Assembly: GCF_020149915.1 (NCBI RefSeq)
Contig: NZ_CP083760.1
Coordinates: 2,232,001-2,296,000 of the forward strand
Length of the DNA stretch: 64,000 bases
Origin: Candidatus Sulfidibacterium hydrothermale
GTDB lineage: Bacteria; Bacteroidota; Bacteroidia; Bacteroidales; F082
Reading direction: 5' to 3'
The notes beneath the pieces were generated by a model, which worked only from the letters and a program-made list of their open reading frames with translations, ran no database searches and was not told the origin of the DNA. Positions 10,022 through 60,077 of this stretch are shown here, piece by piece. Within the stretch, counting starts at the first letter, position 1. Each line of letters starts with the position of its first letter. The translations under genes and the position numbers were made by a program.

Positions 10022-11068
10022 CTACCGTTTTTCCGGGCGCAGTTTGCGTACGGCAGCACCGGCCTGCCACATTTCGGAATTGTGGATTTCGTCCAGTTCC
10101 TTTTGTAATTTCTCACGATAGTCGGGCTGGCGGTTGGCTTCGATGGTAATCCGCGCTTCGTTGCCACTGGCCACGCTTTCGTACAACTCATCAAAAACGG
10201 GGGCTACCGCATCACGAAAACGGTTTTTCCAGTCGAGGGCTCCCCGCTGGGCAGTGGTGGAAGTATTGGCATACATCCAGTCCATTCCGTTTTCGCCTAC
10301 CAGCGGCAACAGGCTCTGTGTCAGCTCTTCCACGGTTTCGTTAAACGCTTCAGAAGGAGAATGACCCTTTTCGCGCAACTTATTGTACTGGGCTTCCATA
10401 ATGCCGGCAATGGCACCCATCAGCACCCCGCGTTCGCCGGTTAAATCGCTGTAAACTTCTTTTTTAAAGTCGGTTTCAAAAAGATATCCCGAACCTACGC
10501 CCACGCCGAGTGCCAGCACACGATCTTTGGCTTTGCCGGTGGCATCCTGATAAATGGCATAACTCGAATTGATTCCTTTTCCGGCAACAAAAAGTCTCCG
10601 CAGCGAGGTACCGGAACCTTTGGGCGCTACCAGAATGACATCCACATCTTCAGGCGGAACAATGCCAGTTTGTTCGCTAAAAGTAATGCCAAATCCATGT
10701 GAAAAATAGAGTGCTTTTCCGGGGGTCAGGTGTTTTTTAATCACCGGCCACATGGCAATCTGTCCGGCATCGGAAAGCAGATACTGGATAATGGTTGCTT
10801 TTTCGGCTGCCTCTTCAATGTCGAACAGGTCTTTTCCGGGCACCCAGCCGTCTTTTACCGCTTTGTCCCAGGTAGGTGAGTTTTTCCGCTGTCCGACAAT
10901 CACGTTAAAGCCATTGTCTTTCAGGTTGAGCGACTGGCCCGGTCCCTGTACGCCATAGCCAATCACGGCAATGACTTCGTCTTTTAACACTTCGCGGGCT
11001 TTTTCCAAAGGAAATTCTTCGCGGGTAACGACGTTTTCTTCCACGCCGCCAAAATTAATTTTTGCCAT
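10022..11068 (-). CDS. ilvC: Ketol-acid reductoisomerase
   Basis: Second common enzyme of valine/isoleucine synthesis. It converts 2-acetolactate (or acetohydroxybutyrate) to the 2,3-dihydroxy acid with NAD(P)H and Mg2+. At 348 residues it has class I length. The N-terminal Rossmann motif GYGVQGPGQ (37-45) is followed by the cofactor-specificity loop GQRKNS (59-64). The C-terminal knotted helical domain carries the acidic metal ligands (DLTGERG and following Glu residues). It is the last gene of the minus-strand ilvDBNC operon, 40 nt after ilvN, with the operon terminator just downstream. Confidence 0.97.
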   Translation of the reverse strand: MAKINFGGVEENVVTREEFPLEKAREVLKDEVIAVIGYGVQGPGQSLNLKDNGFNVIVGQRKNSPTWDKAVKDGWVPGKDLFDIEEAAEKATIIQYLLSDAGQIAMWPVIKKHLTPGKALYFSHGFGITFSEQTGIVPPEDVDVILVAPKGSGTSLRRLFVAGKGINSSYAIYQDATGKAKDRVLALGVGVGSGYLFETDFKKEVYSDLTGERGVLMGAIAGIMEAQYNKLREKGHSPSEAFNETVEELTQSLLPLVGENGMDWMYANTSTTAQRGALDWKNRFRDAVAPVFDELYESVASGNEARITIEANRQPDYREKLQKELDEIHNSEMWQAGAAVRKLRPEKR

Positions 11069-11657: not shown

Positions 11658-13385
11658 TTATTGATTATTAGGTTCGAGAATAATTTCGGAAACCGATTTT
11701 CCCGGTTCAACCATCGGGAAGATATTACCTTCCTTTTCGATGGAAACTTCCAAAAGATAAGCTGTTTTGGATGCCAGCATTTCGTCGATGGCATCATTCA
11801 GTTCGCTGCGGTCACGCACCAGACGGGCCGGCACACCAAAGCCTTCGGCAATTTTTATAAAATCCGGATTGACCATCTCGGTAGACGCATATCTTTTGTT
11901 GTAAAACAAATCCTGCCACTGGCGGACCATTCCCAGGAAATTATTGTTGAGCAGCACCATTTTTACAGGAATCTGGTATTGCATAATCGTTCCCAGTTCC
12001 TGAATGGTCATCTGAAAACCACCGTCGCCGGCAAACAAAACCGTTTGATGCTGCGGATCGCCAATGCCGGTACCTACGGCAGCAGGCAGACCGAAACCCA
12101 TGGTACCCATTCCGCCGGAAGTAATCAGGCTGTTGGGACGGTTAAACTGATAATAACGGGCAGCTGCCATCTGATGCTGTCCTACATCAGTGACCACATT
12201 GGCCTGTCCGTTGGTTTTTTCGGAAACCAGCCGGACCACCTCACCCATTCTGATTTTTCCGTTGGCAGGACGCGTTTCGCGGTTAACCACCTTTTCAATC
12301 TCTTTCTGTTCGAGCTTGCGGAAACTATTGAGCCATTCGGGATAGCTGTTTTCATGAACAAGCGGAAGCAACTGGTTTAAAGCTTCTTTGGCATCGGCAT
12401 GAATTTCTACATCCACCTGCACATTTTTATTGATTTCGGCTTTATCGATTTCAATGTGAATGATCTTTGCTTTTTTGGCATATTCCGAAAGCTTTCCGGT
12501 TACCCGGTCGTCAAAACGCATTCCGACAGCAATCAACAAATCGGCTTCGTTGGTATTGACGTTGGAACTGTAACTGCCGTGCATACCGAGGAATCCTACA
12601 AACTGCGGATGATTTGACGGAAAAGAAGACAACCCGAGCAAAGTGGTAGCCACCGGAATACCTGTTTTTTCGGCCAGCTGCATCAGTTCTTTTTCGGCTT
12701 TGGCAATTAAAACTCCGTGACCGGAAAGAATCATCGGGCGTTGTGCCTGATTTATCAAATCGGCAGCAGCCTGAACCACATCCTTCTGAGGACGGGCCAT
12801 ATTGGGATTATAACTACGAATCCAGGTGCATTTTTCGTAATAAAAATCAACCGTATCCAGCAAAGCATCTTTGGTAATGTCAATCAACACCGGGCCCGGT
12901 CGTCCCGTACCGGCAATGTAAAATGCTTTGGCCATCACTTCAGGAATTTCTTCCGCTTTGCGGATTTGATAATTCCATTTAGTAACGGGTGTGGAAATTC
13001 CCAGGATATCTGTTTCCTGAAAAGCTGCACTTCCAATCAGGTTGGAAACCACCTGTGCCGTAACAAACACTACCGGAACCGAATCAAGATAAGCATTGGC
13101 AATACCGGTAACCAGGTTGGTAGCTCCCGGCCCGGAAGTGGCAAAACACACGGCGGTTTTTTCGGTCACCTGTGCATAAGCCTGGGCAGCATGGGCAGCT
13201 CCCTGTTCGTGCCGGGTAAGAATATGCCTGATGGTTTTATCTTTTTCTTTTTCCATCAGTTCATCATAAATAGGCATGATGGCTCCGCCCGGATAACCGA
13301 AAATGGTATCCACGCCCTCTTCAAGCAGCGACTGCACCACTGCCCGGGCACCTATCATCGATTCTGTTTTTTTCTTTTCTTCCAT
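11658..13385 (-). CDS. ilvB: Acetolactate synthase large (catalytic) subunit
   Basis: ThDP/FAD-dependent enzyme that joins two pyruvates (or pyruvate and 2-ketobutyrate), the first common step to valine, leucine and isoleucine. It has 575 residues in three ThDP-family domains. The catalytic Glu60 lies in [14 protein letters not shown]. The ThDP/Mg-binding motif GDGGFQ...LLNNNFLGM lies in the C-terminal third. The N-terminal [11 protein letters not shown] is typical of acetohydroxyacid synthases rather than pyruvate oxidases. It sits 36 nt after ilvD and 3 nt before ilvN. Confidence 0.96.
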
Positions 13386-13421: not shown

Positions 13422-15248
13422 TTAAATTAACCGGACGGCTCCCTTGTCGGCCGAGCTGACCAAACGGGCATAAGCCTTTAAAGAAGCGGGGATATTCCGG
13501 TTTCTGTGCAACGGGGTATAAGCCGCATCGCCACGGACGAGTTGTTTTTGTTTTCTCTTTTCCAGTTCTTCGTCCGAAACACACAAATGAATCTTCCGGG
13601 CAGCGATATCAAATTCAATAACATCCCCATCTTCGATCAGGGCAATCTCGCCGCCGGCCGCTGCTTCCGGTGAAATGTGGCCTATCGACAGCCCGGATGT
13701 CCCGCCCGAAAACCGGCCATCGGTAATCAGTGCACAATCTTTATCCAGCAACTTCGATTTCAGGTAAGAGGTGGGATAAAGCATCTCCTGCATGCCGGGG
13801 CCGCCTTTGGGACCTTCATAACGAATGACCACCACATCGCCTTTTTCCACTTTTCCGGTAAGAATACCTTCAACAGCTTCTTCCTGCGACTCAAAAACCT
13901 TGGCCTTTCCCGAAAAGGTAAACATGGAAGGAACTACACCTGCCGTTTTCACAATACACCCCGAACGGGCAATGTTTCCAAACAGAACAGCCAGTCCGCC
14001 ATCCTGATTATAAGCATGTTTCACATCGCGGATACATCCGTTTTCGCGATCCAGATCCAGGGTTTTAAAATGATTGTTTTGGGAAGCCATGCGCAGGTTC
14101 CGTACAAAAGCCGGGGCACTCGAATAAATTTCATCGGCTTCGGCAACGTGTGTATCCCGGTTGATATCATATTTTTCAATGGCCGTTTTTACATCGCCGG
14201 TATCCACCCTTTTTACGGAAATATCCAGCAAACCGGCTTTGTCCAACTCGCCCATAATGCCAATTACACCACCGGCACGGTTTACATCCTGCATGTGGTA
14301 ATGCGAACTGGGTGAAACCTTACACAGGTTAGGGATTTTACGCGATAAAGCGTCAATATCTTTCATGGAAAAATCCACCTGGGCTTCATGGGCAATAGCC
14401 AACAAGTGCAATACCGTATTGGTGGAACCGCCCATGGCAATATCCACCGACATGGCATTCACAAAAGCTTCGCGTGTAGCAATGGATCGCGGCAAAACAC
14501 TATCATCGCCGTCGCGGTAATAACGGAAAGTATTTTCCACTATCAGCTTGGCTGCTTTTTTCAGCATCACCTCGCGGTTTACGTGTGTGGCCACTACCGT
14601 TCCGTTACCAGGCAAAGCCAGTCCGAGTGCTTCGTTCAGGCAGTTCATCGAGTTGGCCGTAAACATTCCGGAACAGGAACCGCACGTGGGACAGGCTATT
14701 TTTTCCACCTCCGCCAGTTCTTCGTCGCTGACCGATTCATCAGCCGCCAGCACCATGGCGTCCACTAAATCGTAATTTTTCCCTTTGAGCGAGCCGGCTT
14801 CCATGGGGCCGCCCGAAACAAAAACCGTCGGGATGTTCAGGCGCATGGCAGCCATCATCATACCGGGTGTAATTTTATCGCAGTTGCTGATGCAAATCAT
14901 GGCATCCACGGTATGAGCGTTACACACATATTCCACACTGTCGGCAATCAAATCGCGCGACGGCAAAGAATACAGCATCCCGGAATGTCCCATGGCAATC
15001 CCGTCGTCGATGGCAATGGTGTTAAACTCGGCTGCAAAACATCCCTCGGCTTCAATCAGCTTTTTTATCTGCTGACCGGCCTCATGCAGGTGTACATGCC
15101 CCGGAACAAACTGTGAAAAAGAATTCACAATGGCAATAACAGGTTTTTTAAACTGGCTTTCCTGCATGCCGTTGGCGCGCCAGAGACTTCTTGCTCCAGC
15201 CATGTTTCTTCCCGAAGTGGAAGTTAAACTTCTTAACGGATAGCCCAT
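13422..15248 (-). CDS. ilvD: Dihydroxy-acid dehydratase
   Basis: Iron-sulfur enzyme that dehydrates 2,3-dihydroxy-isovalerate or -methylvalerate to the 2-keto acid. It has 608 residues, within the usual range. Visible ligands are Cys123 in SNCDK and the cluster CPTCGSCSG (Cys186, Cys189, Cys192). Asp82 lies in the IDDG metal site, and GRFSGGTSG occurs near the C-terminus. It is the first structural gene of the operon. Its ATG is only 16 nt past the T-tract of a leader terminator, so readthrough at that terminator governs the whole ilvDBNC operon. Confidence 0.96.
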
Positions 15249-15264
15249 AATTTTTTGTTTTATT

Positions 15265-15300
15265 AAAAAAAAAGCTCCCCGGTTTTATTACCGGAGAGCT
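15265..15300 (-). terminator. Leader (attenuator) terminator of the ilv operon
   Basis: On the minus strand: AGCTCTCCGG, 8-nt loop, CCGGGGAGCT (10 pairs, one G-U), then eight Ts, ending 16 nt before the ilvD ATG. Its position between leader peptide and first gene makes it a regulated rather than an end-of-operon terminator. Confidence 0.85.
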
Positions 15301-15340
15301 TCATACATTTTGTTTTTATTGTGTCGTACGGGTCTCCGGC

Positions 15341-15406
15341 CTATGGTGAAATGACCACAAGCAGAAGGACAATAATAATGTGAATATTACTAAAAACCCG
15401 TTTCAT
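15341..15406 (-). CDS. ilv operon leader peptide
   Basis: A 21-codon open frame (ATG to TAG) of which residues 8-19 read IHIIIVLLLVVI: five Ile, three Val and three Leu out of twelve. This is the composition expected of an attenuator leader peptide sensing charged tRNA-Ile, -Val and -Leu, the end products of the downstream ilvDBNC genes. The stop codon directly precedes the antiterminator segment. No product function is expected beyond ribosome stalling. It is too short for routine gene callers. Confidence 0.8.
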   Translation of the reverse strand: MKRVFSNIHIIIVLLLVVISP

Positions 15407-15429
15407 TTTTTATCATGATTTCAACGGGG

Positions 15430-15459
15430 TAAAAATAGAAACTATTTGAAAAAGTCAAG
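15430..15459 (-). promoter_or_regulatory. Probable promoter of the ilv operon
   Basis: On the minus strand a TTG (15456-15458) is followed after 18 nt by TATTTTTA, one mismatch from TAnnTTTG, 24 nt upstream of the leader-peptide ATG. Confidence 0.4.
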
Positions 15460-15731: not shown

Positions 15732-16895
15732 ATGCAGGTATTACAAGACATGATTCATTTTACTCCGTTTTATGTTACCTTTTTCTGGGGAATTGTTTTT
15801 TTACTCAATCCGTATCATAAAAACCGTGCCCGTTACGGATTGGGAATATTTATGCTTGCCGCTGCCGCTGTTTACCTGACCCATGCGGTTTTTTTCACAC
15901 ATAATTATTCCTTTTATCTAAAGATCGACGGTTTGTACATGTTTGCCGATTTGCTGGTTTATCCGTTGTACTACTTTTATATCAGGCTGCTGACAAAAGA
16001 TTTAAAGTTCAGGAAATGTTATATCTGGCACATCCTTCCGGCATTGCTGCTGGCTGTTGCTTTTGAATGGGCAAGCATAAAGACATCTGCAGAAGGACAT
16101 AAAATTTACCTGCACAGCGTTTTGCTGAACCATACTTTCCCGGCAAAGATCACTGAGCCATCCTTAAGGTGGATGGTACGCCTTTATTTTGCCAGTCGCG
16201 TTGTTTTTGGAATACAGTCTCTCGTATATTTAATTTTAAGTATTCGTCTTATCCGAAAATATCACCGGCGGATTGCCAATTTTTACTCCAACCTGCAGGG
16301 CCACAAACTGGCCTGGCTTGAATTATTAACCATTACGCTGATTGTTGCCGCCATATCCAGTTTTCTGTTGAATATTCTCGGCCGCCACTTTTTCGAGCAG
16401 AAAAACCTGGTACTGATCCCGTCGCTTATTTTCAGCACCCTGCTTTTTATTATCGGTTTTCTCGGCAACAAGCAAAACCAGACCATTGCCCATGTCATAC
16501 AAGACGAAAACAGGGATGATCAGCTTTTTGAAAAGCCCGTCAGCAGTATTCTACTGAAAGAAAAGCTGCAGGAACTTATGGAAAACGAAAGGCCCTACCT
16601 GAATCCGCAACTGCGCATTACCGACCTGAGCAACCGGCTTTTTACCAATCGCACCTATCTGTCGAAACTCATCAACTCGGAATTCAAAATGAGCTTCAAC
16701 GATTTTGTTAACCGTTACCGGGTTGAATATGCTAAAGATCTGTTGGCTCAGGATAAAGAAGCGCACTATTCGTTAAACTATTTTTCCGAACAGGCCGGAT
16801 TTGGATCGCTGAGTTCGTTTTTGCGGGCTTTTAAACAACAAGAAGGGGAAACCGCCGGTATGTACCGACGGAAGTTGATAAAAAAAACAGATTAG
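15732..16895 (+). CDS. Membrane-anchored AraC-family transcriptional regulator
   Basis: A 387-residue protein with about seven hydrophobic segments in the first ~245 residues (for example FYVTFFWGIVFLLNP, FMLAAAAVYLTHAVFF, LLTITLIVAAISSFLLNILG), then a cytoplasmic linker and a C-terminal AraC-type double helix-turn-helix at about residues 295-383. Within it, ITDLSNRLFTNRTYLSKLIN is the first HTH and SLNYFSEQAGFGSLSSFLRAFKQ the second. This 7TM-plus-AraC layout is common in Bacteroidota. The signal sensed is unknown. It lies upstream of, and on the same strand as, the two giant T9SS cargo genes, so control of them is possible but only inferred. Confidence 0.85.
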   Translation: MQVLQDMIHFTPFYVTFFWGIVFLLNPYHKNRARYGLGIFMLAAAAVYLTHAVFFTHNYSFYLKIDGLYMFADLLVYPLYYFYIRLLTKDLKFRKCYIWHILPALLLAVAFEWASIKTSAEGHKIYLHSVLLNHTFPAKITEPSLRWMVRLYFASRVVFGIQSLVYLILSIRLIRKYHRRIANFYSNLQGHKLAWLELLTITLIVAAISSFLLNILGRHFFEQKNLVLIPSLIFSTLLFIIGFLGNKQNQTIAHVIQDENRDDQLFEKPVSSILLKEKLQELMENERPYLNPQLRITDLSNRLFTNRTYLSKLINSEFKMSFNDFVNRYRVEYAKDLLAQDKEAHYSLNYFSEQAGFGSLSSFLRAFKQQEGETAGMYRRKLIKKTD

Positions 16896-17064: not shown

Positions 17065-20000
17065 ATGGAAAACAGACCTTTACACAAAAAAAGAAAACCG
17101 TTTATCCCATTCTCAATTTATTTACTGTTTTTTATACTCGGATTGGGCAATTTTTTCACTGCCAAAGCACAAACGCCCATTGATTCTTTAATTTTTGCCA
17201 CTGACGGAACGGTTGAATCCACAGTTATTTCCGGTGATTATCTCTACCTGGGTGGAGATTTTACCCATATCGGAGAAAAAACCGGACCGATAGCTTTTTT
17301 TCTGAACGGCTCCAATACTCCGGAAAAAGGCATGCCTATTGTAGGTGATATCCGTCCTTACTGGATGTCTGATCAGGTTTATACTGTTTTGCCTGATGAC
17401 AATGGCGGATGGTTTATTGCGGGGAAATTTAGTCTGATCAATAACCGGGAACATAACATTTTCGCCCATATTCTGAAAGACAAAAGCATTGATCCGCTAT
17501 GGGATTTAAAATGGGAATCCGATAAACAGATCAATGTGATGAAATATGATGGTGACTATATATATCTCGCCGGAGACATGTCCATAAAAGACAGCCAGGG
17601 CAACTTACACGAATATGTTTGTCGCATCAACCGGAAAACACGGGAGGTGGACCCCGAATGGAATCCGGACCTGAAAGATGCCGACGAAGTGGAAAAAATG
17701 GAAATCGGAAAAGATTGGGTATATCTTGCCGGCTGGATCGGAAAAGTGGAAGGCTTTTGGCAGGATGCCATGGTAGTAGTGGATAAAAATACCGGAAAAA
17801 GAATCGCTTTTCCCACCGCCAGCTCCATAACCGCTTTAAAACTCATGGGCGATACACTTCTGGCCGGCCAGCCCAATTTATATTGGAGCAAATATCCGGA
17901 TGGATTTGGCTACATTGCCAAAGGCATTGTTGGCTTGGACGAACAAAACGACAAGCCGGTTCAGGCCGACGCCCCGGAAGGATACTTTTACCATTCCATT
18001 CCTGACGGAAACGGTGGTTGGTATGTAGCCGGACGATACAATGAAAATGACGGTTTTTTTCATCTCGATAAAGATTTACAGGAAATTGAAACATTCAAAC
18101 AAGACAACCTGACCTATTCATCTCCTTACACCCGGCTACTTCTTTATAACAATGCTTTATTTATAGGAACTAAAAGCGATATTAGTTTAAATGAAAAAAC
18201 CTATCGTTACTTGTTTAAACTGGATGCTACTACAGGGGAAATGGATACCAGTTTCCGTCCCTTACCCAATGCCCAAATTTATTCTCTGGCACAATGGGGA
18301 GATACCCTGATCGTTGGAGGAAAATTTGATACCATTGCCGGAGAATACCGTCCCGGGCTGGCCGCTATTGACCTGAAAACAGGCGCCCTGCTTCCCTGGA
18401 AACCCGATATTCATCTCAGCAATTTCGATGCAGGATACACCGGAGGAGAAAGAGCTATTCAGGCTATGACCATTAAAAACGATACACTCTACATTGGCGG
18501 AATTTTTCAAATTTCTACTCCTACGCTTGACAGCAATGCCCGTGGCATCTACGGACTGGCACGCTACAACCTAAAAACCGGAGAACTGGATACCACCTTT
18601 CATATTCATACCAGTTATTTTGATCAACCCACCATTACCGGGATGGATTTTCTGAACAATGACCTGTATGTTGTGGGGATTTTCGATATAAAAACACCTT
18701 CCGGAGAAGAAATCGAGAACACAGCCATTTTTAATATTGCCAAAAGGCAATTATCACCCGTAAATACCGGTTTTCTTTTCTCTCATTCAGATTCCTTTTC
18801 TATCCCACAAATTCTTATCCAAAACGGCATCATCTACATGTGGGGAATAAGCGCAACAGACAATTCCACCGGGGAAAAACGATCTTATTTCATTAGTTTG
18901 AAAGCATCGGACCATCAATTTACCTCCTGGAATCCTCTGCCTAATTACCGGGTACACAGTTTTTCCTTCAGCAATGATAAAATCCTGATGTCGGGAAATT
19001 TCTATTTCCTGAAAAGCTATCCGGATAATTTTGTGGGAATTACTATTCCAAACGGCAACTATGTTCAGTTTCCCGATTTGGAATCAGCCTATACCCTCGC
19101 TCTTTCCCCAAAATATATTTTTATCGGGGGTGATTTTAAATGGTATAATGACAGCAGTGTAAACGGACTGGTCCGGCTCAAACGGAAAGACCTGAGCTTC
19201 ACTTCCTTTCCACATCATATTTTGTCTGATCAAAAACCCATCGCAATAAACAGCATAGTACTGGGTGACAGCGGATTATATGTTACAGGATATTCTGCGT
19301 TTAATCTTGTAAATGGTAATTACCGACAAAATATTTGTCTGCTGGACCCGGAAACTGCCGAACTAAAGAACTGGCAGCCACCGACAGCCGATGACAAACC
19401 GGAACGTGTTTTCTGTTTCGGTAACAATGTAGTAGTTGCCGGAGGATTTGGTCTCATGCCTTCATGGGAACGTAACGGAGCCGCTAAAATCAATCTGAAG
19501 ACCTCTTCGGTAACCGACTGGAATATGAACATTCCAGGTTATATTCACATATATAAAATTATCGTGGCCGGTGATACCGTGTATGTAGGAGGTGATGACA
19601 TTGACGAAATCAACGGAAAAGATGCCAGCGAATTGTCAGCCGTCAGCGCATCATCCGCCACCCTGATTTCCGGTTTCAAACCATCCATCCTTACGGACGG
19701 ATACGGAGACAGCGAAATCACCGCCATGGCCAAATACGGAAATGCCTTATATGCTGCCGGTGAATTCTTTTCTGTAAACGGGAAAACCCATCATTGTATC
19801 GTAAAACTCGACGCATCCACCGGTGAAGTACAAAATTGGGATCCCAAACTTTATGAAGGGTGGAATCCGATATACTGCATTCTTCCTACCGACACCGCAG
19901 TCTACATTGGCGGAAAAGAAATTAACACGGAAAACAACAACGATGTAAAAAGCTGGCTAATTAAAGTAGACACTGACAGCGGAAATCTAAAGAAGATCTA

Positions 20001-22599
20001 TCCCTCTTCGTACAATCAAAAGATCCGGGCACTGGCCCTAAACAAAGACGGCGTGCTGGCAGCAGCATCCAATGATTATAAAGGGCTGTTAATTCTTGAT
20101 AAAACCAAAGACACCTTACTGCCAGTAGAAAGCCAGCCCGAATTTTATTGGGGACTGTATCAGGTTACTGCAATTGACAATGGTTTTATCGCTTTGGGCA
20201 ATAAAATAAAAGAATTCAATAGTTATACCGAAAAACCGGGGCTGTTTATTTACGACCTGAATCTGGATACCGTGGCCAACATTATCAGTATCCCTGTAAT
20301 ACAAGGACATCCCTATCATTTTGCGCTAAACGGAACACTACTGACCTTAGGAGGTGATTTTGACGGGATAAATGAACAAATCACCAACAGCAATATTGAC
20401 TTCCTAACCATGCCAACCCAAATTATGCTCGAACCGGGAGTTTACTCCTGGAGTCCCAAAAGAGCCAACAACACGGATCCGTTTGCCCTGACTATCAATG
20501 GGTACGGATTTTCAGACAGTACCATCGTGAGGCTTTACGGTTACCAAAACTGGTATCCGGACAGCATGTCCGTAACACCGGAAAAAATCATTGCCTGGTT
20601 TGATGGCAAAAAGATCTTCACACCACAATATCTTAATCTTGCTGTAAAACTCAATAATAACAGCGATGAAGAAATCTTCACTAAAGCGGTTACCCTTACA
20701 ACAACACTTCCCTCCGATGTATGGGCCGACTGGGTAGGACCATCAAAGGTTCTGGCAGGAAAACCCACCACCTTTTATCTCTTGTACGGAAACCGCTCAA
20801 CGGCAAATGCATATGGCGTATTTCTCTATTTGGCCGTGGAGGACAAGCAGAGTATAATACTTCCCAATGACATTCAACCTCCGGCAACCGATGGCATCAA
20901 CTGGGATACCATTCCTTCTTATGTGGAATCCGATTATTTTCTTGGCGAACCTTTCAAGGGAAAAGTTTACACCATTTCTCTGCCTTATTTACCGGCAGAA
21001 TATGAAGGCGCTATTAAACTTACCGTAAATTCTGCCACTTCATCCAACCCTATTCGCGTAGGGATCTCACGGCCTATTTACAACAGTTATGAAGAGTTAA
21101 CCAGTACAGGAACAAAATCAGCCAACGGAATAGGTTATAGTTTCTTTAGTTGTATGTATTCGATAGCCGATTTCTTTGCAGACTTAACTCCCGGTATAAG
21201 CTGTATGAAAGCGGCTTTCGATAATACCGTTTTGATGGCTATTGACAAACATGTACAAAATGAGTCTGTTCAGGCAGAAGACATTGCCAACGCCTTAGGC
21301 ATGACCATATTAGGATGCATTCCGGGAGAAGCAGCTGTTTCTAAAGGTTTTGCCATAGCAAAAGGCATGGCCAGCATGTACAGTAATGCCTCCGGAGTGT
21401 CAAGTGCCCTTGGAGCCTGCGGCGGCTTTATTGACGGACTGAAAAAAGAAGCCTTTGATGTAGAAGGATACGTCACACACGACCCCAATGCCAAATTTGG
21501 CCCGGAAGGAATGAATACCTCTCCTTACATCCGCTCTGACCATCCGTATAACTATATAGTGACATTTGAAAATGATTCCGGTGCCACCGCTCCGGTGCAA
21601 CGGGTAATCATTACCGACACACTGGACAAGAACGTTTTCGATTTGAATACCTTCAAAGCCATTGGATTCGGATTTGGAGATACTTCTTATATGTTCCGGC
21701 CAACTGACGGTGACACGGTATATATTGACCTGCGCCCGGAAAAAAACACCATTGTCAGGGTTTTTTACCAACTCGATAAAAATTCCGGGATTTTAACCTG
21801 GAATTTTATGGCACTGGATCCGGAAACATATCAACTTGTTGACAATATTGATGATGGATTCCTGCCACCCAACCGCAAAGCTCCGGAAGGCGAAGGAAAC
21901 ATTCTCTATGCCGTAACTCCTTTGTCCGGATTGCCGGAGGGAACCCAAATCAAGAACGCTGCTCACATTGTCTTTGACTGGAATGATGAAATCCCCACGA
22001 ATACCTGGAACAACACCACCGACAATATTGCTCCGGAAAGTGCCGTGAATGCACTTCCGGACAAAACCGTGGAAACCAGTTTCAAAGTTTCCTGGAAAGG
22101 TTCAGATGAAGGTAGTGGTATTTATGCTTACACTGTCTTCGTTTCTGAAAACGACAGTGCTTATTATCCCTGGTTGGTGGATACCCACGACACTTCGGCT
22201 GTTTTTTCCGGACAACCGGGCGTAACCTATAAATTTTACTCGATAGCCGTGGACAGTGCAGGAAATAAAGAACCCGTTCCGTCCATTTACGACGCCAAAA
22301 TTACCGTGAGCGGAACGGGTATTGAAACTTTCGGAACAGGAAACCAAATGCAGTTCCGGATCTATCCCAATCCGGCCAAAGAACACTTCAACGTAGATTA
22401 CTACCTGCCCGAAAGCAGTTCCGTGAGAATTGACGTGCTTAACGCCTGTGGTCATCTGGTGCAGCTGCCGGTAAAAACAACCGCTTTACGTGGCACATCG
22501 CACGTATCATTGGACATCTCACACCTGCCGGCCGGTTATTATTTTGTTCGTATTCTCACCAAATACGGCGTACAAGTCCGTAAAATCATTAAACAATAA
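17065..22599 (+). CDS. T9SS-exported giant propeller-like protein (paralogue 1)
   Basis: 1844 residues. An N-terminal signal peptide (hydrophobic IYLLFFILGLGNFF, cleavage near AKAQ) is followed by roughly 1100 residues of repeats of the type YLYLGGDFTHIG / WYVAGRY / LFKLDATTGEMD, resembling delta-60/kelch-like propeller blades. An IPT-like segment follows (SWSPKRANNTDPFALTINGYGF), then a beta-rich DUF11/DUF7619-like region (about 1475-1650: DPNAKFGPEG, VTFENDSGATAPVQRVIITDTLD). The last ~80 residues (from IYPNPAKEHF, about 1765, to VRKIIKQ) form a type IX secretion sorting domain. It is expected on the surface or secreted; ligand unknown. The next gene is a full-length paralogue with an identical C-terminus. 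Confidence 0.8.
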   Translation: MENRPLHKKRKPFIPFSIYLLFFILGLGNFFTAKAQTPIDSLIFATDGTVESTVISGDYLYLGGDFTHIGEKTGPIAFFLNGSNTPEKGMPIVGDIRPYWMSDQVYTVLPDDNGGWFIAGKFSLINNREHNIFAHILKDKSIDPLWDLKWESDKQINVMKYDGDYIYLAGDMSIKDSQGNLHEYVCRINRKTREVDPEWNPDLKDADEVEKMEIGKDWVYLAGWIGKVEGFWQDAMVVVDKNTGKRIAFPTASSITALKLMGDTLLAGQPNLYWSKYPDGFGYIAKGIVGLDEQNDKPVQADAPEGYFYHSIPDGNGGWYVAGRYNENDGFFHLDKDLQEIETFKQDNLTYSSPYTRLLLYNNALFIGTKSDISLNEKTYRYLFKLDATTGEMDTSFRPLPNAQIYSLAQWGDTLIVGGKFDTIAGEYRPGLAAIDLKTGALLPWKPDIHLSNFDAGYTGGERAIQAMTIKNDTLYIGGIFQISTPTLDSNARGIYGLARYNLKTGELDTTFHIHTSYFDQPTITGMDFLNNDLYVVGIFDIKTPSGEEIENTAIFNIAKRQLSPVNTGFLFSHSDSFSIPQILIQNGIIYMWGISATDNSTGEKRSYFISLKASDHQFTSWNPLPNYRVHSFSFSNDKILMSGNFYFLKSYPDNFVGITIPNGNYVQFPDLESAYTLALSPKYIFIGGDFKWYNDSSVNGLVRLKRKDLSFTSFPHHILSDQKPIAINSIVLGDSGLYVTGYSAFNLVNGNYRQNICLLDPETAELKNWQPPTADDKPERVFCFGNNVVVAGGFGLMPSWERNGAAKINLKTSSVTDWNMNIPGYIHIYKIIVAGDTVYVGGDDIDEINGKDASELSAVSASSATLISGFKPSILTDGYGDSEITAMAKYGNALYAAGEFFSVNGKTHHCIVKLDASTGEVQNWDPKLYEGWNPIYCILPTDTAVYIGGKEINTENNNDVKSWLIKVDTDSGNLKKIYPSSYNQKIRALALNKDGVLAAASNDYKGLLILDKTKDTLLPVESQPEFYWGLYQVTAIDNGFIALGNKIKEFNSYTEKPGLFIYDLNLDTVANIISIPVIQGHPYHFALNGTLLTLGGDFDGINEQITNSNIDFLTMPTQIMLEPGVYSWSPKRANNTDPFALTINGYGFSDSTIVRLYGYQNWYPDSMSVTPEKIIAWFDGKKIFTPQYLNLAVKLNNNSDEEIFTKAVTLTTTLPSDVWADWVGPSKVLAGKPTTFYLLYGNRSTANAYGVFLYLAVEDKQSIILPNDIQPPATDGINWDTIPSYVESDYFLGEPFKGKVYTISLPYLPAEYEGAIKLTVNSATSSNPIRVGISRPIYNSYEELTSTGTKSANGIGYSFFSCMYSIADFFADLTPGISCMKAAFDNTVLMAIDKHVQNESVQAEDIANALGMTILGCIPGEAAVSKGFAIAKGMASMYSNASGVSSALGACGGFIDGLKKEAFDVEGYVTHDPNAKFGPEGMNTSPYIRSDHPYNYIVTFENDSGATAPVQRVIITDTLDKNVFDLNTFKAIGFGFGDTSYMFRPTDGDTVYIDLRPEKNTIVRVFYQLDKNSGILTWNFMALDPETYQLVDNIDDGFLPPNRKAPEGEGNILYAVTPLSGLPEGTQIKNAAHIVFDWNDEIPTNTWNNTTDNIAPESAVNALPDKTVETSFKVSWKGSDEGSGIYAYTVFVSENDSAYYPWLVDTHDTSAVFSGQPGVTYKFYSIAVDSAGNKEPVPSIYDAKITVSGTGIETFGTGNQMQFRIYPNPAKEHFNVDYYLPESSSVRIDVLNACGHLVQLPVKTTALRGTSHVSLDISHLPAGYYFVRILTKYGVQVRKIIKQ

Positions 22600-22837: not shown

Positions 22838-25800
22838 ATGAAACATTTATTACTTTTAAGAAAAAGGGAACATTTTCTTTTTCGGTGTTTGTTATCCTTA
22901 TTACTTTTTATAATGTCACCACCGATACAATCACAAAAACTGATTGATTCGTTAAACTGGTCTGTTAACAGCATACAGCCTACAATGGCATCTGATCAAC
23001 AGTACCTTTATATCGGAAATATTAATACCATTGGGAAAAAATCTCCGGGATGGGCTCTTTTCCAAAACGGTTCATCACAACCAACAGACAGTCTCCCTGC
23101 TTTAACAGGAAATCCGACTTATGGCCAATGCCAAATCCGGTATATTTATGCTGCCGTTACCGATGGAAATGGCGGCTGGTACATTGGCGGAGATTTTTTT
23201 ACCGTCAACGGGGAAAAAACCGGTCCACTTGCTCATATCCGGGCAGATAAAACCGTTGAAAATTTCGCTTTAAAGGGATTGTCTTTTAATGAAACCGGAA
23301 GTGCTGAAGTCTTTACCTTAAAAAAAGACGGAAACTTTTTATATGTTGGAGGACGCTTTATAGCTAAAGACAATAAAGGCAATTATTACAACAGTATTTT
23401 TAAGCTCAACCTGAACACTGGAGAAGTTGATCCGGAATTCAATCCATTCCCCGGGAAAAAAGACTTCAATAATAACCAGATTGATCAAATCGAAACGGGA
23501 AACAATAAAGTATTTATTACCGGACACTTTGAAAACCAAACAAAAGGTTTTCTGGTTTTCGACCAAACTACCGGAAAACAAATTCATACTCCTTCAACTA
23601 TTTCTTCTCCTACCATAGTTCTACTCCATGACACTTTACTTATTTCTGCCAATTCATCGTTTGGCTATCCTTTAAATACAGGCAGAAATGGACTTGCCTT
23701 ACTGGATGTTAATACAGACACTTCCATTCTTCCTCACCCTCTTTTCAAAGATTATCAGGAAGACATTACATCAGTCATTGGCGATGGGGAAGGCGGCTGG
23801 TATATTTCCACTTTCCAAGGAATTTACCATTTCACCCCGGATCTGGAGCAGGACACCGTCTTTAAACAGAAACTTCTTAACAAAGCATCACAACTTTTGC
23901 TAAATGGGGATAACCTTTTTGTTTGTTCTGACCAATCGGTTGAGGTAAACGGAAAAACCATCTCCAAGTTATTTAAACTGGATGCCCGAACAGGAACCAT
24001 TGACACCCTTTTCAACCCCAACCCCGATTTACCGGTTTATGGTCTTACTGCAAATGGAGATACCCTTTTTGCCGGCGGACCTTTTTACCAGATTGCCGGA
24101 CAAAAACAACAAAAATTGGCTGCACTGAATATTGCTGATGGGAAACTCATCAATTGGAATCCAGAAACAGAAGGAATTCCATTTCCATTTGGCAATTACT
24201 GGGACGGTGTAAAACAATTAATCATACACGACGGGAAACTCTATATTTCAGGAAAATTCACTCTTAAAAATCACACAAATATTGTCAGTTTGGCCCGTTT
24301 TGACCTCCAGACAGGAAAAGTGGATACAACATTTTTCATTGACGATTTCAAACAAACGGCTCCGGACATTACCGGAATGGCTCTTTATCAAAACAAACTT
24401 TTCGTCACATCCAAAAATGATTTAATCTCAACCACCAAAGATGTGGATAATTTTGCCGTTATTGATTCGGACAAAAAAACCATCAGACTAATCAACGGCA
24501 GTTACAAGATTTCTTTTTCCGGCTGGTATGATCAGTCACCGAAAATTAGAGAATATCAGGGAAAAATTTATTGCTGGCACCTTGCTGCTACAGATACAGT
24601 CACCCGGTTATCCAGAACGCATTTCTTCAGCATGGATGCTCAAAGCGAAAAACTCACTTCCTGGAATCCCAATCCGGACAACACCGTAAATATATTTGCG
24701 GCTTCAGGAGACCGAATGCTGATTTATGGTTCTTTTAGCACACTAAAAACTTTATTTGTCAACAATACAAACGCTTCAAGTCTTTTTGCTTTGAACACCA
24801 ACAATTTCCAATATATTCCGATTTATTATCCGGGGAAAAGCTTTGGCAGTTCTTATTTTGTAAAACAGTTTGTTTCCAACAATAAATACATCTTTGCAAG
24901 TACAGATAGTTATAAATATGGAGACAGCACGGTTTATGGTCTTATCCGGCTAAGCCGAAAAAATTTAAGTTTCGCTCCTTATCATCCCGGACTAAAGTGG
25001 ATTAATTCGTATGTCAGCATCTATAATATTGCTTTGGGAAAACAAGGTTTATTCGTTATGGGAAATTTTGACAAAGTAGGGAATGCCGAACGAAAAGGAC
25101 TTTGTTTATTGGATTCCGAAACTGCAGAACTAAAAGCATGGAACCCACCGCCATTTAATTTAACAGGGCCAAATAAACGAATTTTTGCATCGGAGAACGA
25201 CTCAAACGTAATTGTAAGTACCGATTATAACACATTATTATACCCGTTTTGGTCCCGGGACGGGCTGGCCAAAATCGACCTTAGCACAGGAAAACTATCA
25301 AGCTGGAATCCCCACAGTAAGTCATTACGATTAAATGCTCCGGGCAATGTCCAAAAAATTAAGATTTATGGTGACACTGTTGTCGTTTCGTTCCAGGAAC
25401 CCGTGGTGATGAACGGGAAAGACACCGGAAGTTTATTTTTACTCAACCGGGTTACCGGTCAGGTTATCCCCGGCTTCCATCCGCCTGTATGCGACTATTC
25501 TTACTTTTCATCTTTTTTTACGGTTACTTTTGCCCGTCAGGGAAATGATTTGTTTTTAGCCGGTGATTTTAAAAATGTCAACGGAATAAACCATCCCAAC
25601 CTGGTAAAAATCGATTTCAGTACAGGTAAAATAGATGACAAATGGGGAACTCCTTCTTTCACATCTAACACAGAAATCAATGGAGTTGTCGTCTTTCGTG
25701 ATACGATATATGTCTACGGAAATATCTATCTGGCAAACGACACATATGTTCACCCATTGATAAGCATAGATGCCAAAACCGGAAATATCATCAAAGCTTA

Positions 25801-28411
25801 CCCGCTTGGCAATGGCAATTATCAGAATATCACGAACATGGCGGTTAATAAAGAGGGAACAATTATGTTTTTCAATAAGTATCTCCCTGGCATTTATGTC
25901 CTTGAACCGGAAAACCGGGATACCATAATAAAAGAAGTAAAATTGAGTACAATGGCCAGCTCATTCACAGCTATCCGGACTTACGAAAACCGTTTTATTC
26001 TGGCAGCCAAAAACATGAGCGAAAAGAATCTGACAACAACTAAATCCGGAATGATTTTTTATGACCCAGACAATGATACTGTTTTACATGCTTTTACCCT
26101 CCCATCTGCTAATACTGGAGCAGAGATTTCATCATTTTCCTGTTCCAATGATATTTTAGCAATTGGAGGCTATTTGTGCAATGTTTACGGCCAACAAAAT
26201 ACTAATCTGGCTTTCCTGACCATGCCCGATCTTCACTTAAAACCTGGAATTACTTCCTGGACTCCTCATAAAGCCGATAACAGAAACCCTTTTGCTTTGA
26301 TGATCTACGGAACAGGATTTGGAGAAAACTCGTCTGTTTCCCTTTTCAACAACGACACCACCCTGTCACCTGACAGTCTGTTTGTAAAAACAAATAAAAT
26401 CACGGCTTGGTTTGACGGAACCCGTTTTATTCCAGGAGAATGGAATATGAAAGTGGCCATTTCCGACACCCTGACGAAAACCTTTACCGGAGCCATAAAA
26501 ATTGATGAAGGCAGTTATACCGAGATGTGGGCAAAACTTACCGGGCCCAACGTGGTACTTATTCACAAACCAGAAACCTATTACGTTTCTTTTGGGAATA
26601 AAGGAAATACAGCAGCTTTCGGGACTTTTCTTTACATTGGCGTAGGAAAAGATCAGGAGGTTACTTTCCCCAACAGTGAAATACAGGTACCCGATATTCA
26701 TTACAATAACTTTGATATCAACATGGATACTGTAACCATGTACACTAACGTGGATTACTTTTTCGGACAACCTTTTGACGGAAAAGTATACGCCTTATTT
26801 ATTCCGTACATCCCGGCTCATTTTGAATATGATTTGAAAATATACATTCGGTCGGATGTTCACGGGCAAAAACCGGTTATGCGTGTGGCCATCAGTCAGC
26901 CTTTGTATGAAAGTTATGATGAAATATCCGAAAACCTGAAATCAACTGAAGGATTTTTCTCCAGTTTCTTTCATTGTGCTTATGATATCGCAAGTACGGT
27001 GGCCAGCCTGACACCCGGAATCTCCTGCATTAAATCGGTTTTTGATAATTTTATTTATGAAGGATACAAGCGCTACGTAACCAATCAAACTTTTGATGCT
27101 CTTTCGGTAACCAAATCCACCGGGCTGGTAGCATTGGATTGTTCCGGCGCAGGAACTGTGGGAAAAGCTTACACCATTGCGACAAAAATTGTTCAGACCG
27201 GTAACGGATTACTAAGTATCTCAGGGAGCTGTGATCATTTTTTCAAAAACCTGTTTCAAGACAATACTCAGTCACAAATAGAAGCTTCTGTGGATCCTAA
27301 TGCCAAATTTGGCCCGACGGGATTAAGTTCTTCCCATTTCGTAACATCCAAACACCCGTATCAATACCTCATTACTTTCGAAAACGATTCGGCAGCTACA
27401 GCTCCGGCACAACGGGTAATCATTATTGACACACTGGACAAAAATGTCTTTGACCTGAATACTTTCCGTCCGCTGGGCTTCGGCTTCGGCGATACGAATT
27501 ACCTGTACCGGGAAAATGATGGAGATACGGTATATATCGATTTACGACCGGAAAAAAATGCTCTTGTCAGGATATTCTATCAATTGGATAAAGGAACCGG
27601 CATACTCAAATGGACGTTTCAGACACTGGATCCAAATACTTATGCGTATGTAACCAATGTCAATGACGGATTTTTACCTCCCAACCGTAAATCGCCCGAA
27701 GGCGATGGTAACGTTTTCTATTCCATCGAACCACTGGCCGGTCTTCCGGAAGGAACCACTATTCATAACCAGGCACATATCATTTTCGACTGGAACGAAG
27801 AAATGGCTACCGATACCTGGAACAACACCACCGACAATATTGCTCCGGAAAGTGCCGTGAATGCACTTCCGGACAAAACCGTGGAAACCAGTTTCAAAGT
27901 TTCCTGGAAAGGCTCAGATGAAGGTAGTGGCATTTATGCCTATACTGTCTTTGTTTCCGAAAACGATAGTGCTTATTATCCCTGGTTGGTGGATACCCAC
28001 GACACTTCGGCTGTTTTTTCCGGACAACCGGGCGTAACCTATAAATTTTACTCGATAGCTGTGGACAGTGCAGGAAATAAAGAACCCGTTCCGTCCATTT
28101 ACGACGCCAAAATTACCGTGAGTGGAACGGGTATTGAAACTTTCGGAACAGGAAACCAAATGCAGTTCCGGATCTATCCCAATCCGGCCAAAGAACACTT
28201 CAACGTAGATTACTACCTGCCCGAAAGCAGTTCTGTGAGAATTGACGTGCTTAACGCCTGTGGTCATCTGGTGCAGCTGCCGGTAAAAACAACCGCTTTA
28301 CGTGGCACATCGCACGTATCATTGGACATCTCACACCTGCCGGCCGGTTATTATTTTGTTCGTATTCTCACCAAATACGGCGTACAAGTCCGTAAAATCA
28401 TTAAACAATAA
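22838..28411 (+). CDS. T9SS-exported giant propeller-like protein (paralogue 2)
   Basis: 1857 residues with the same architecture as its upstream neighbour: signal peptide (FRCLLSLLLFIMSPPIQSQ), long propeller-like repeats (YLYIGNINTIGKK, WYIGGDFFTVNGEKTGPLAHI, LFKLDARTGTIDTLF), an IPT-like segment (SWTPHKADNRNPFALMIYGTGFG), a DUF11/DUF7619-like region (DPNAKFGPTG, ITFENDSAATAPAQRVIIIDTLD) and a T9SS sorting domain from about residue 1778. The N-terminal ~1500 residues are clearly diverged, but the last ~199 residues equal paralogue 1 exactly. It has its own promoter and terminator. The function is unknown; surface adhesion or polymer binding is a guess from the propeller-like repeats. Confidence 0.8.
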   Translation: MKHLLLLRKREHFLFRCLLSLLLFIMSPPIQSQKLIDSLNWSVNSIQPTMASDQQYLYIGNINTIGKKSPGWALFQNGSSQPTDSLPALTGNPTYGQCQIRYIYAAVTDGNGGWYIGGDFFTVNGEKTGPLAHIRADKTVENFALKGLSFNETGSAEVFTLKKDGNFLYVGGRFIAKDNKGNYYNSIFKLNLNTGEVDPEFNPFPGKKDFNNNQIDQIETGNNKVFITGHFENQTKGFLVFDQTTGKQIHTPSTISSPTIVLLHDTLLISANSSFGYPLNTGRNGLALLDVNTDTSILPHPLFKDYQEDITSVIGDGEGGWYISTFQGIYHFTPDLEQDTVFKQKLLNKASQLLLNGDNLFVCSDQSVEVNGKTISKLFKLDARTGTIDTLFNPNPDLPVYGLTANGDTLFAGGPFYQIAGQKQQKLAALNIADGKLINWNPETEGIPFPFGNYWDGVKQLIIHDGKLYISGKFTLKNHTNIVSLARFDLQTGKVDTTFFIDDFKQTAPDITGMALYQNKLFVTSKNDLISTTKDVDNFAVIDSDKKTIRLINGSYKISFSGWYDQSPKIREYQGKIYCWHLAATDTVTRLSRTHFFSMDAQSEKLTSWNPNPDNTVNIFAASGDRMLIYGSFSTLKTLFVNNTNASSLFALNTNNFQYIPIYYPGKSFGSSYFVKQFVSNNKYIFASTDSYKYGDSTVYGLIRLSRKNLSFAPYHPGLKWINSYVSIYNIALGKQGLFVMGNFDKVGNAERKGLCLLDSETAELKAWNPPPFNLTGPNKRIFASENDSNVIVSTDYNTLLYPFWSRDGLAKIDLSTGKLSSWNPHSKSLRLNAPGNVQKIKIYGDTVVVSFQEPVVMNGKDTGSLFLLNRVTGQVIPGFHPPVCDYSYFSSFFTVTFARQGNDLFLAGDFKNVNGINHPNLVKIDFSTGKIDDKWGTPSFTSNTEINGVVVFRDTIYVYGNIYLANDTYVHPLISIDAKTGNIIKAYPLGNGNYQNITNMAVNKEGTIMFFNKYLPGIYVLEPENRDTIIKEVKLSTMASSFTAIRTYENRFILAAKNMSEKNLTTTKSGMIFYDPDNDTVLHAFTLPSANTGAEISSFSCSNDILAIGGYLCNVYGQQNTNLAFLTMPDLHLKPGITSWTPHKADNRNPFALMIYGTGFGENSSVSLFNNDTTLSPDSLFVKTNKITAWFDGTRFIPGEWNMKVAISDTLTKTFTGAIKIDEGSYTEMWAKLTGPNVVLIHKPETYYVSFGNKGNTAAFGTFLYIGVGKDQEVTFPNSEIQVPDIHYNNFDINMDTVTMYTNVDYFFGQPFDGKVYALFIPYIPAHFEYDLKIYIRSDVHGQKPVMRVAISQPLYESYDEISENLKSTEGFFSSFFHCAYDIASTVASLTPGISCIKSVFDNFIYEGYKRYVTNQTFDALSVTKSTGLVALDCSGAGTVGKAYTIATKIVQTGNGLLSISGSCDHFFKNLFQDNTQSQIEASVDPNAKFGPTGLSSSHFVTSKHPYQYLITFENDSAATAPAQRVIIIDTLDKNVFDLNTFRPLGFGFGDTNYLYRENDGDTVYIDLRPEKNALVRIFYQLDKGTGILKWTFQTLDPNTYAYVTNVNDGFLPPNRKSPEGDGNVFYSIEPLAGLPEGTTIHNQAHIIFDWNEEMATDTWNNTTDNIAPESAVNALPDKTVETSFKVSWKGSDEGSGIYAYTVFVSENDSAYYPWLVDTHDTSAVFSGQPGVTYKFYSIAVDSAGNKEPVPSIYDAKITVSGTGIETFGTGNQMQFRIYPNPAKEHFNVDYYLPESSSVRIDVLNACGHLVQLPVKTTALRGTSHVSLDISHLPAGYYFVRILTKYGVQVRKIIKQ

Positions 28412-59855: not shown

Positions 59856-59862
59856 TGCCGTC

Positions 59863-59982
59863 ATTCTTCAGGGCAGGGTGAAATTCCCGACCGGCGGTGA
59901 AAGTCCGCGACTCCCGATGAGAATCGGGACTGATTCCGTGAAATCCGGAAACCGACAGTATAGTCTGGATGGGAGAAGAAAC
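59863..59982 (+). promoter_or_regulatory. FMN riboswitch (RFN element)
   Basis: All conserved RFN blocks are present in order: CTTCAGGGCAGGGTGAAATT, CCCGACCGGCGGTGAAAG, CCGCGACTCC, a variable hairpin CCCGAT/ATCGGG, GATTCCGTGAAATCCGGAAA, CCGACAGTATAGTCTGGATG and the closing GGGAGAAGAAACG that pairs with the 5' end. It binds flavin mononucleotide. It lies in the 5' leader of a TonB-dependent receptor gene, with a hairpin terminator between the two, so FMN should shut the gene off by premature termination. Confidence 0.96.
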
Positions 59983-60077
59983 GACAAACGGAAACACATG
60001 CTATGCATGCAAGTGCACTATGGAGTAGTGTGAAATGTTGTGTGTGGTGTTTTCTTTTATTACCTCTCTCCTTTTAT

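Follow-up and report, generated by a model that had tools for sequence, protein, structure and literature searches.

A predicted leader-peptide attenuator before the ilv operon of Candidatus Sulfidibacterium hydrothermale, and related leaders in Bacteroidales

Architecture of the ilv leader

The question of whether the ilvDBNC operon of Candidatus Sulfidibacterium hydrothermale is controlled by a ribosome-mediated transcription attenuator, and whether such a device would stand alone in its phylum, is raised by a short stretch of minus-strand DNA (15265-15459) in the window, by which we mean the whole 64,000 nucleotides analyzed here. Attenuators of the Escherichia coli type consist of a micro-ORF with control codons and mutually exclusive antiterminator and terminator structures, with a biosynthetic operon downstream. 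At this locus we find a micro-ORF rich in codons of the pathway, a terminator before the first gene, and an antiterminator that excludes the terminator and is matched to it from locus to locus. An attenuator of this kind very probably controls the operon, and its best reading is as part of an order-wide system. The basis is computed throughout, and comprises the parts themselves, their conservation, the matched changes of antiterminator and terminator, the composition of the peptides and a folding threshold; from it we infer that the micro-ORF is translated, that termination occurs in vivo and that the leader responds to starvation.

The operon lies on the minus strand, and all four products score above the cut-offs of their families: ilvD, the first structural gene, encodes dihydroxy-acid dehydratase (13422-15248; NCBIfam NF009103 and TIGR00110), and is followed by ilvB and ilvN for the large and small subunits of acetolactate synthase (11658-13385, TIGR00118; 11109-11654, TIGR00119) and by ilvC for ketol-acid reductoisomerase (10022-11068, TIGR00465). 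Elsewhere in the window there is an FMN riboswitch (59860-59984, plus strand; 112.6 bits), and two adjacent, very large plus-strand ORFs (17065-22599 and 22838-28411; 1844 and 1857 aa) are identical in their last 198 residues and in 177 bases at the 3' end, which suggests a recent duplication or gene conversion.

The micro-ORF (15341-15406, minus strand) has 21 codons followed by TAG (MKRVFSNIHIIIVLLLVVISP), with the control codons at 8-19; residues 8-19 (IHIIIVLLLVVI) are Ile, Leu or Val at 11 of 12 positions. A first-pass annotation of this DNA had described the same 21-codon frame. In an untranslated leader, segment 1 (CGGGTTTTT, codons 3-6; 15392-15400) may pair with GGAGACCCG (15337-15329). 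Segment 2 (GCCGGAGA; 15333-15340), the 5' strand of the antiterminator, lies directly 3' of the stop codon and pairs with TCTCCGGT, at z 4.6 relative to shuffles; the annotation had CCGGAGACC following the stop at once, which is right in position except that one G separates it from TAG. The heptamer CCGGAGA (15339-15333) is, as was claimed, the exact complement of TCTCCGG (15297-15291) in the first arm of the terminator, from which a spacer of 30 nt separates it, and an extra short helix, CGTAC (15330-15326) with GTATG (15306-15302), is predicted by RNA folding to lengthen the antiterminator (15302-15330). The intrinsic terminator (15271-15302), made of segment 3 (GAAGCTCTCCGGT), the loop AATAAA and segment 4 (ACCGGGGAGCTTT), has 13 pairs and a run of nine T (15265-15273), the first three of them paired within the stem. 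The 10 pairs and eight T originally given were thus too few, although the end of the run does lie 16 nt before the ATG of ilvD (15248). The whole leader has a much stronger fold than shuffled sequence (z -5.4), with none of 200 shuffles equaling it, and once the second arm of the terminator is removed it does no better than they do (z -0.01), so its strong fold is mainly that of the terminator.

In the proposed mechanism, RNA polymerase would transcribe the leader with a ribosome following along the micro-ORF. Were charged Ile-, Val- or Leu-tRNA scarce, the ribosome would stall among codons 8-18 and leave segment 2 free to pair with segment 3; no terminator hairpin would form and the operon would be read. 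Were all three plentiful, the ribosome would reach the stop and cover segment 2, segments 3 and 4 would form the terminator, and transcription would end ahead of ilvD. In part of the genus, pairing of segments 1 and 2 may also cause termination in the absence of translation.

Fold energies of the nascent RNA were computed over the stretch that runs from the leading edge of the ribosome, assumed to lie 15 nt past the first base of the A-site codon, through segment 3. In the window leader they range from -22.4 to -18.9 kcal/mol for a ribosome at codons 8-12, where a separate upstream hairpin contributes, and are -15.0 at codons 13-17, -14.6 at 18, -8.6 at Ile19 and -2.1 at Ser20/Pro21; in this model the switch point would fall right behind the last Ile codon. 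Across 63 leaders the mean is -14.7 in mid-run versus -1.7 at the stop, a difference that is in part the trivial effect of a shortening RNA; compared with shuffled upstream sequence, the median z is -2.5, and 36 of the 63 leaders reach z ≤ -2. Since the full terminator of the window leader (-25) is more stable than its antiterminator (-15), the switch must be kinetic. The pairing of segments 1 and 2 has a z of 2.2 in this leader and its pairs are retained in four of eight aligned loci of the genus; a general hairpin of this type was sought and not found, with z ≥ 2 in 11 of 63 leaders (four in the genus, seven outside). Six loci (L105, L115, L120, L122, L128 and L142) were dropped before the 63-leader analyses of folding, promoters, codon usage and segment 1:2 pairing.

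Conservation upstream of ilvD

An IlvD search of relatives found the protein in 20 of 40 genomes, the window's own included, and a search of named genomes supplied the best 80 loci among the matches listed, divided by record title into 61 from Bacteroidota and 19 others, or 60 and 16 once those with less than 200 nt upstream were left out. The scan of the 420 nt upstream required a micro-ORF 8-45 codons long that has seven or more Ile, Leu or Val within ten residues and ends no more than 80 nt before a terminator. Among the matches listed, 40 of the 60 named Bacteroidota loci have both parts before ilvD, as do none of the 16 non-Bacteroidota loci; as a background, the scan accepts 1 of 259 control regions taken before other genes on those contigs, and 2 of 300 shuffles. 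The expectation that relatives keep the micro-ORF is thereby borne out, and of the two possibilities offered at first pass, independent use or wide spread in Bacteroidota, wide spread is favored over isolated use. The remaining 20 of these 60 named Bacteroidota loci, again among the matches listed, fail the scan, and they include a Prevotella-type clade of nine; a few failures reflect a contig end, Ns or the thresholds (L014, L005, L049, L061).

On an IlvD tree with 58 rows with a leader, 36 without and five too short, the trait requires 13 changes compared with a shuffled mean of 31.7, loci with less than 200 nt upstream being excluded from these counts; the tree was built with FastTree and has many weak forks, 35 of its 96 inner branches being open. 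The position of the window among the named loci of this tree points to Bacteroidales. The clustering of the leader, and its absence from the nine rows of the Prevotella-type clade, suggest an old trait of the order that has been lost in places. The enzyme itself is unevenly distributed: an IlvD match is missing in 11 of 12 genomes of other genera of the same family and present in 9 of 11 other genomes of the same genus, and branched-chain synthesis seems patchy within the window's family.

Farther afield, the upstream sequences of 20 distant IlvD genes were chosen from 218 matching genomes, and a convincing set of parts is seen in three of them (L133, L139, L148); a fourth, L142, passed the threshold and appears to be a chance hit. 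In another class of Bacteroidota (26 loci, L105-L130) the region before ilvD often holds an Ile/Leu/Val micro-ORF together with a conserved hairpin of another kind (GGCTTCGGGA...); eleven of the 26 were inspected by eye, and L119 and L122 deviate. Five of these loci entered the antiterminator test described below, all with unremarkable results (z -0.5 to 0.4). In Labilibaculum, Marinifilum and a Marinifilaceae MAG (L032, L039, L043), two full units of micro-ORF and terminator stand in tandem in the 600 nt before ilvD, the first peptide containing Ile, Val and Leu and the second nearly only Ile and Val. An apparent second unit at L048 has a weak upstream hairpin (-8.5) and appears to be due to chance.

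The pairing of antiterminator and terminator was compared between loci by finding, in 69 leaders, the contiguous helix that scores best between the sequence surrounding the stop codon and the first arm of the terminator. The mean score is 18.45 within loci as opposed to 14.14 between loci, and none of 10,000 permutations reached the observed value (p ≤ 1e-4; highest 15.72). Taken singly, 33 of the 69 leaders have z ≥ 3 over shuffles and 36 fall below, several of them near or under 0. The matched pairs are of very different sequence, as in CCGGAGA/TCTCCGG of the window, GAGAATGGTTT/AAACCATTCTC (L015), GTGAGAAAGG/CCTTTCTCAC in Bacteroides (L029) and GAAGAAAGGT/ACCTTTCTTC (L023), and in L029, L037 and L052 the UGA stop is itself within the antiterminator strand. 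One partial locus, L100, whose leader resembles that of L084, was dropped before this test and before the codon and segment 1:2, promoter, fold and composition counts.

Within the genus (eight aligned loci; L085 left out) the helix of segments 2 and 3 is nearly constant. A change on both sides is seen at one of its seven pairs (C-G to T-A, L087), and this same pair is broken in three of the eight loci; L086 breaks three pairs, and in the helix of segments 3 and 4 both sides change at two of 11 pairs. Covariation inside the genus being thin, the case for matched pairing rests on the comparison between genera. There, the compensatory changes anticipated in the two arms do appear as matched differences between loci, and this matching, together with the folding of the nascent RNA, agrees with the earlier proposal that antiterminator and terminator are mutually exclusive.

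The coding run points to selection on what the ribosome reads, because in the same eight loci all of codons 10-17 have T in second position and none of their first and third positions is constant; Ile, Leu, Val and in places Phe interchange across these codons. Judged from sequence, the pattern supports translation of the micro-ORF. Codon choice in the run is also skewed relative to the ilvD genes, with CTA at 19% of Leu codons against 3%, GTC at 48% of Val codons against 15%, and ATT at 78% of Ile codons against 47%, figures that are given without a p-value because related sequences are not independent.

Leaders for other amino acids and the role of the peptide

Eight further places in the window's own genome, found through five families, were examined. 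Micro-ORFs stand before hisG, trpE, leuA, pheA and a thrA-like gene (L151, L152, L153, L166, L167), and at four of these a pathway-rich micro-ORF is combined with a terminator: leuA (MIMDSRSNIWWIILSILIIDRC), hisG (MRTTRRHHHHLHFHPLR), trpE (MNLNNNWWWLLFVRN) and pheA (MSNNFFYTFYYFYFKSDTGLYVV). The leuA and hisG assignments are above NCBIfam cut-offs, trpE is a best match below it (424.8 of 517.7 bits), and the names pheA and thrA come from Pfam domains only. The leuA leader is rich in Ile and Leu and contains Trp-Trp. The micro-ORF before the thrA-like gene is rich in Thr (Thr5) and ends VVTGTTTTTP, and it fails the standard scan, its hairpin overlapping the stop codon and its T tract being poor. 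The citramalate-synthase-like gene (L154), L155 and the second homoserine dehydrogenase gene (L164) of this genome yielded no leader. Antiterminators as good as those of hisG and leuA arise in 4 and 7 of 200 shuffles, respectively. The helix test finds none in the trpE leader (178 of 200 shuffles as good), which was accepted because of its near match to the Rfam family RF01692 and its WWW run.

Across the order (hisG and pheA loci L168-L226), a His-rich leader with a terminator precedes hisG in 25 of 30 loci, the 30 being the best among matches from 36 of 60 genomes, and a Phe/Tyr-rich leader with a terminator precedes pheA in 28 of 30, the window's own included; the two pheA loci that lack one align with the family no earlier than position 20 and may have a wrongly placed start. 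The thresholds of 3 in 10 for His and 6 in 10 for Phe/Tyr were chosen after the distribution had been seen; in shuffles the highest counts are 0 His and 3 Phe/Tyr. When loci with less than 200 nt upstream are excluded, 58 of 78 ilvD loci have a leader of Ile/Leu/Val type, none has one of Phe/Tyr type and one has one of His type; at hisG, 25 of 30 loci have a leader of His type and none one of Ile/Leu/Val type; and at pheA, 28 of 29 have a leader of Phe/Tyr type and one has a leader of Ile/Leu/Val type. The one His leader among the 78 ilvD loci and the one Ile/Leu/Val leader among the 29 pheA loci are the only two off-diagonal entries. The antiterminators are also matched within loci, with p ≤ 2e-4 each for the 25 hisG and 28 pheA leaders. 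That the composition of the peptide follows the pathway downstream is strong evidence that the leader would sense the pathway's own product, and against its encoding a hydrophobic peptide with a function of its own.

This bears on the possibility that the ilv micro-ORF encodes a functional small membrane peptide, the hairpin merely ending its own transcript. Peptides like type I toxins are short and very hydrophobic, the leader peptide is both, and a terminator does follow it. Such a peptide would, however, leave unexplained why the hisG and pheA peptides of the same order switch to His and to Phe/Tyr, and against it stand the variable sequence outside the hydrophobic run, the conserved position before ilvD, and the presence of a strand complementary to the terminator arm and matched to it within loci. 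We consider this reading highly improbable.

Still less probable is a plain terminator with an accidental micro-ORF, the ilvD promoter lying after the T run. In its favor, the evidence is of sequence only and promoters are predicted, yet the 16 nt from the T run to the ATG are too short for a promoter, both parts are rare in shuffles and control regions, and the micro-ORF is itself preceded by a conserved promoter-like block. In the window this likely promoter (15430-15458, minus strand), recognized by motif, has a -33-like TTG (15458-15456) and a -7-like TATTTTTA (15437-15430), and predicts a transcription start near 15424. The Bacteroidota -7 box, TAnnTTTG, is present in the 110 nt preceding the coding run of 39 of 63 leaders, compared with 11% of shuffles, and a variant (TTG near -33 with TA(T/C)TTTTA) is kept in all nine scored loci of the window's genus; on account of this enrichment and this conservation upstream of the run, a start downstream of the micro-ORF appears unlikely. 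The upstream neighbor is divergent (15732-16895, plus strand), so no known upstream transcript ends at the ilv terminator.

Returning to attenuation by leader peptides, the results taken jointly lead us to favor, by a little, the view that it is the Bacteroidales default for amino-acid biosynthesis: that one genome carries Ile/Val/Leu, Leu/Ile, His, Trp and Phe/Tyr leaders, possibly with one for Thr; that the leaders of ilv, his and phe date back to the ancestor of the order and originated independently of those of Proteobacteria; and that in Marinifilaceae two ilv attenuators stand in series and differ in specificity, the first for Ile/Val/Leu and the second almost only for Ile/Val. Such leaders would show that ribosome and polymerase are coupled in Bacteroidales tightly enough for attenuation at several operons, gut genera such as Bacteroides and Phocaeicola included. 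They would be ready reporters of transcription-translation coupling in Bacteroidota, and they point to peptides overlooked by annotation.

Relation to known attenuators and RNA families

Operons of this kind are under T-box control in some other phyla, and sensing by means other than the ribosome (a T-box and tRNA, a riboswitch or an RNA-binding protein) was considered for the ilv leader; its conserved features are codons and an antiterminator, not an aptamer, and no Rfam family reaches its gathering score there, which makes this explanation too a most improbable one. The Rfam search, at gathering and relaxed thresholds, gave as best sub-threshold match in the ilv leader His_leader (RF00514; 25 bits versus 49); there was no T-box match in the leader at the gathering threshold and none among 21 matches at E ≤ 10, no match to Bacteroid-trp (RF01692), and, in the ilv loci of 11 relatives, one tRNA only.

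Among the papers listed in our literature search, none was recognizable as a description of ilv attenuation in Bacteroidota. The abstract of Vitreschak et al. (2004) reportedly mentions candidate attenuators in Bacteroidetes/Chlorobi, and the ilv case may for that reason already be in print. The transcriptome of B. thetaiotaomicron is described as containing small ORFs in 5'-UTRs that are reminiscent of leader peptides (PMC7366714).

The order of parts is like that of the ilv, leu, his, phe and thr attenuators of Proteobacteria (E. coli type). The ilv leader differs from these in having no Rfam match over cut-off, in that the segment 1:2 hairpin is confined to some of the leaders (11 of 63), and in that the antiterminator strand comes directly after the stop codon. 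For the four Rfam attenuator motifs existing in 2013, a study of that year proposes a possible gammaproteobacterial origin with very few transfers (PMC3766115).

The statement of the first-pass annotation that ilv attenuation is established mainly in Proteobacteria was too narrow, given Corynebacterium, leucine attenuation in Staphylococcus aureus and RF01692. Branched-chain leader-peptide attenuation is described in Corynebacterium (the ilvB-II motif, or ilvBNC attenuator; PMC10272879), where a branched-chain leader peptide likewise precedes an ilv operon with a terminator and a putative antiterminator; that system belongs to Actinobacteria and has ilvB first, whereas ilvD is first here, and the two are likened here by description. 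For S. aureus, leader-peptide attenuation by leucine is reported (PMC5794164). Closest in phylum and kind of leader is Bacteroid-trp (RF01692, the Bacteroidete tryptophan peptide leader RNA), which belongs to another operon and another amino acid; the window's own genome has a trpE leader that scores 48.5 bits against it, 0.5 below the gathering score of 49, and under stricter filters the family exceeds its cut-off in 9 of the 197 genomes scored from the class. The mechanism is thus already known, Rfam itself holding a trp leader from Bacteroidota, and what is unexpected is the breadth of its distribution.
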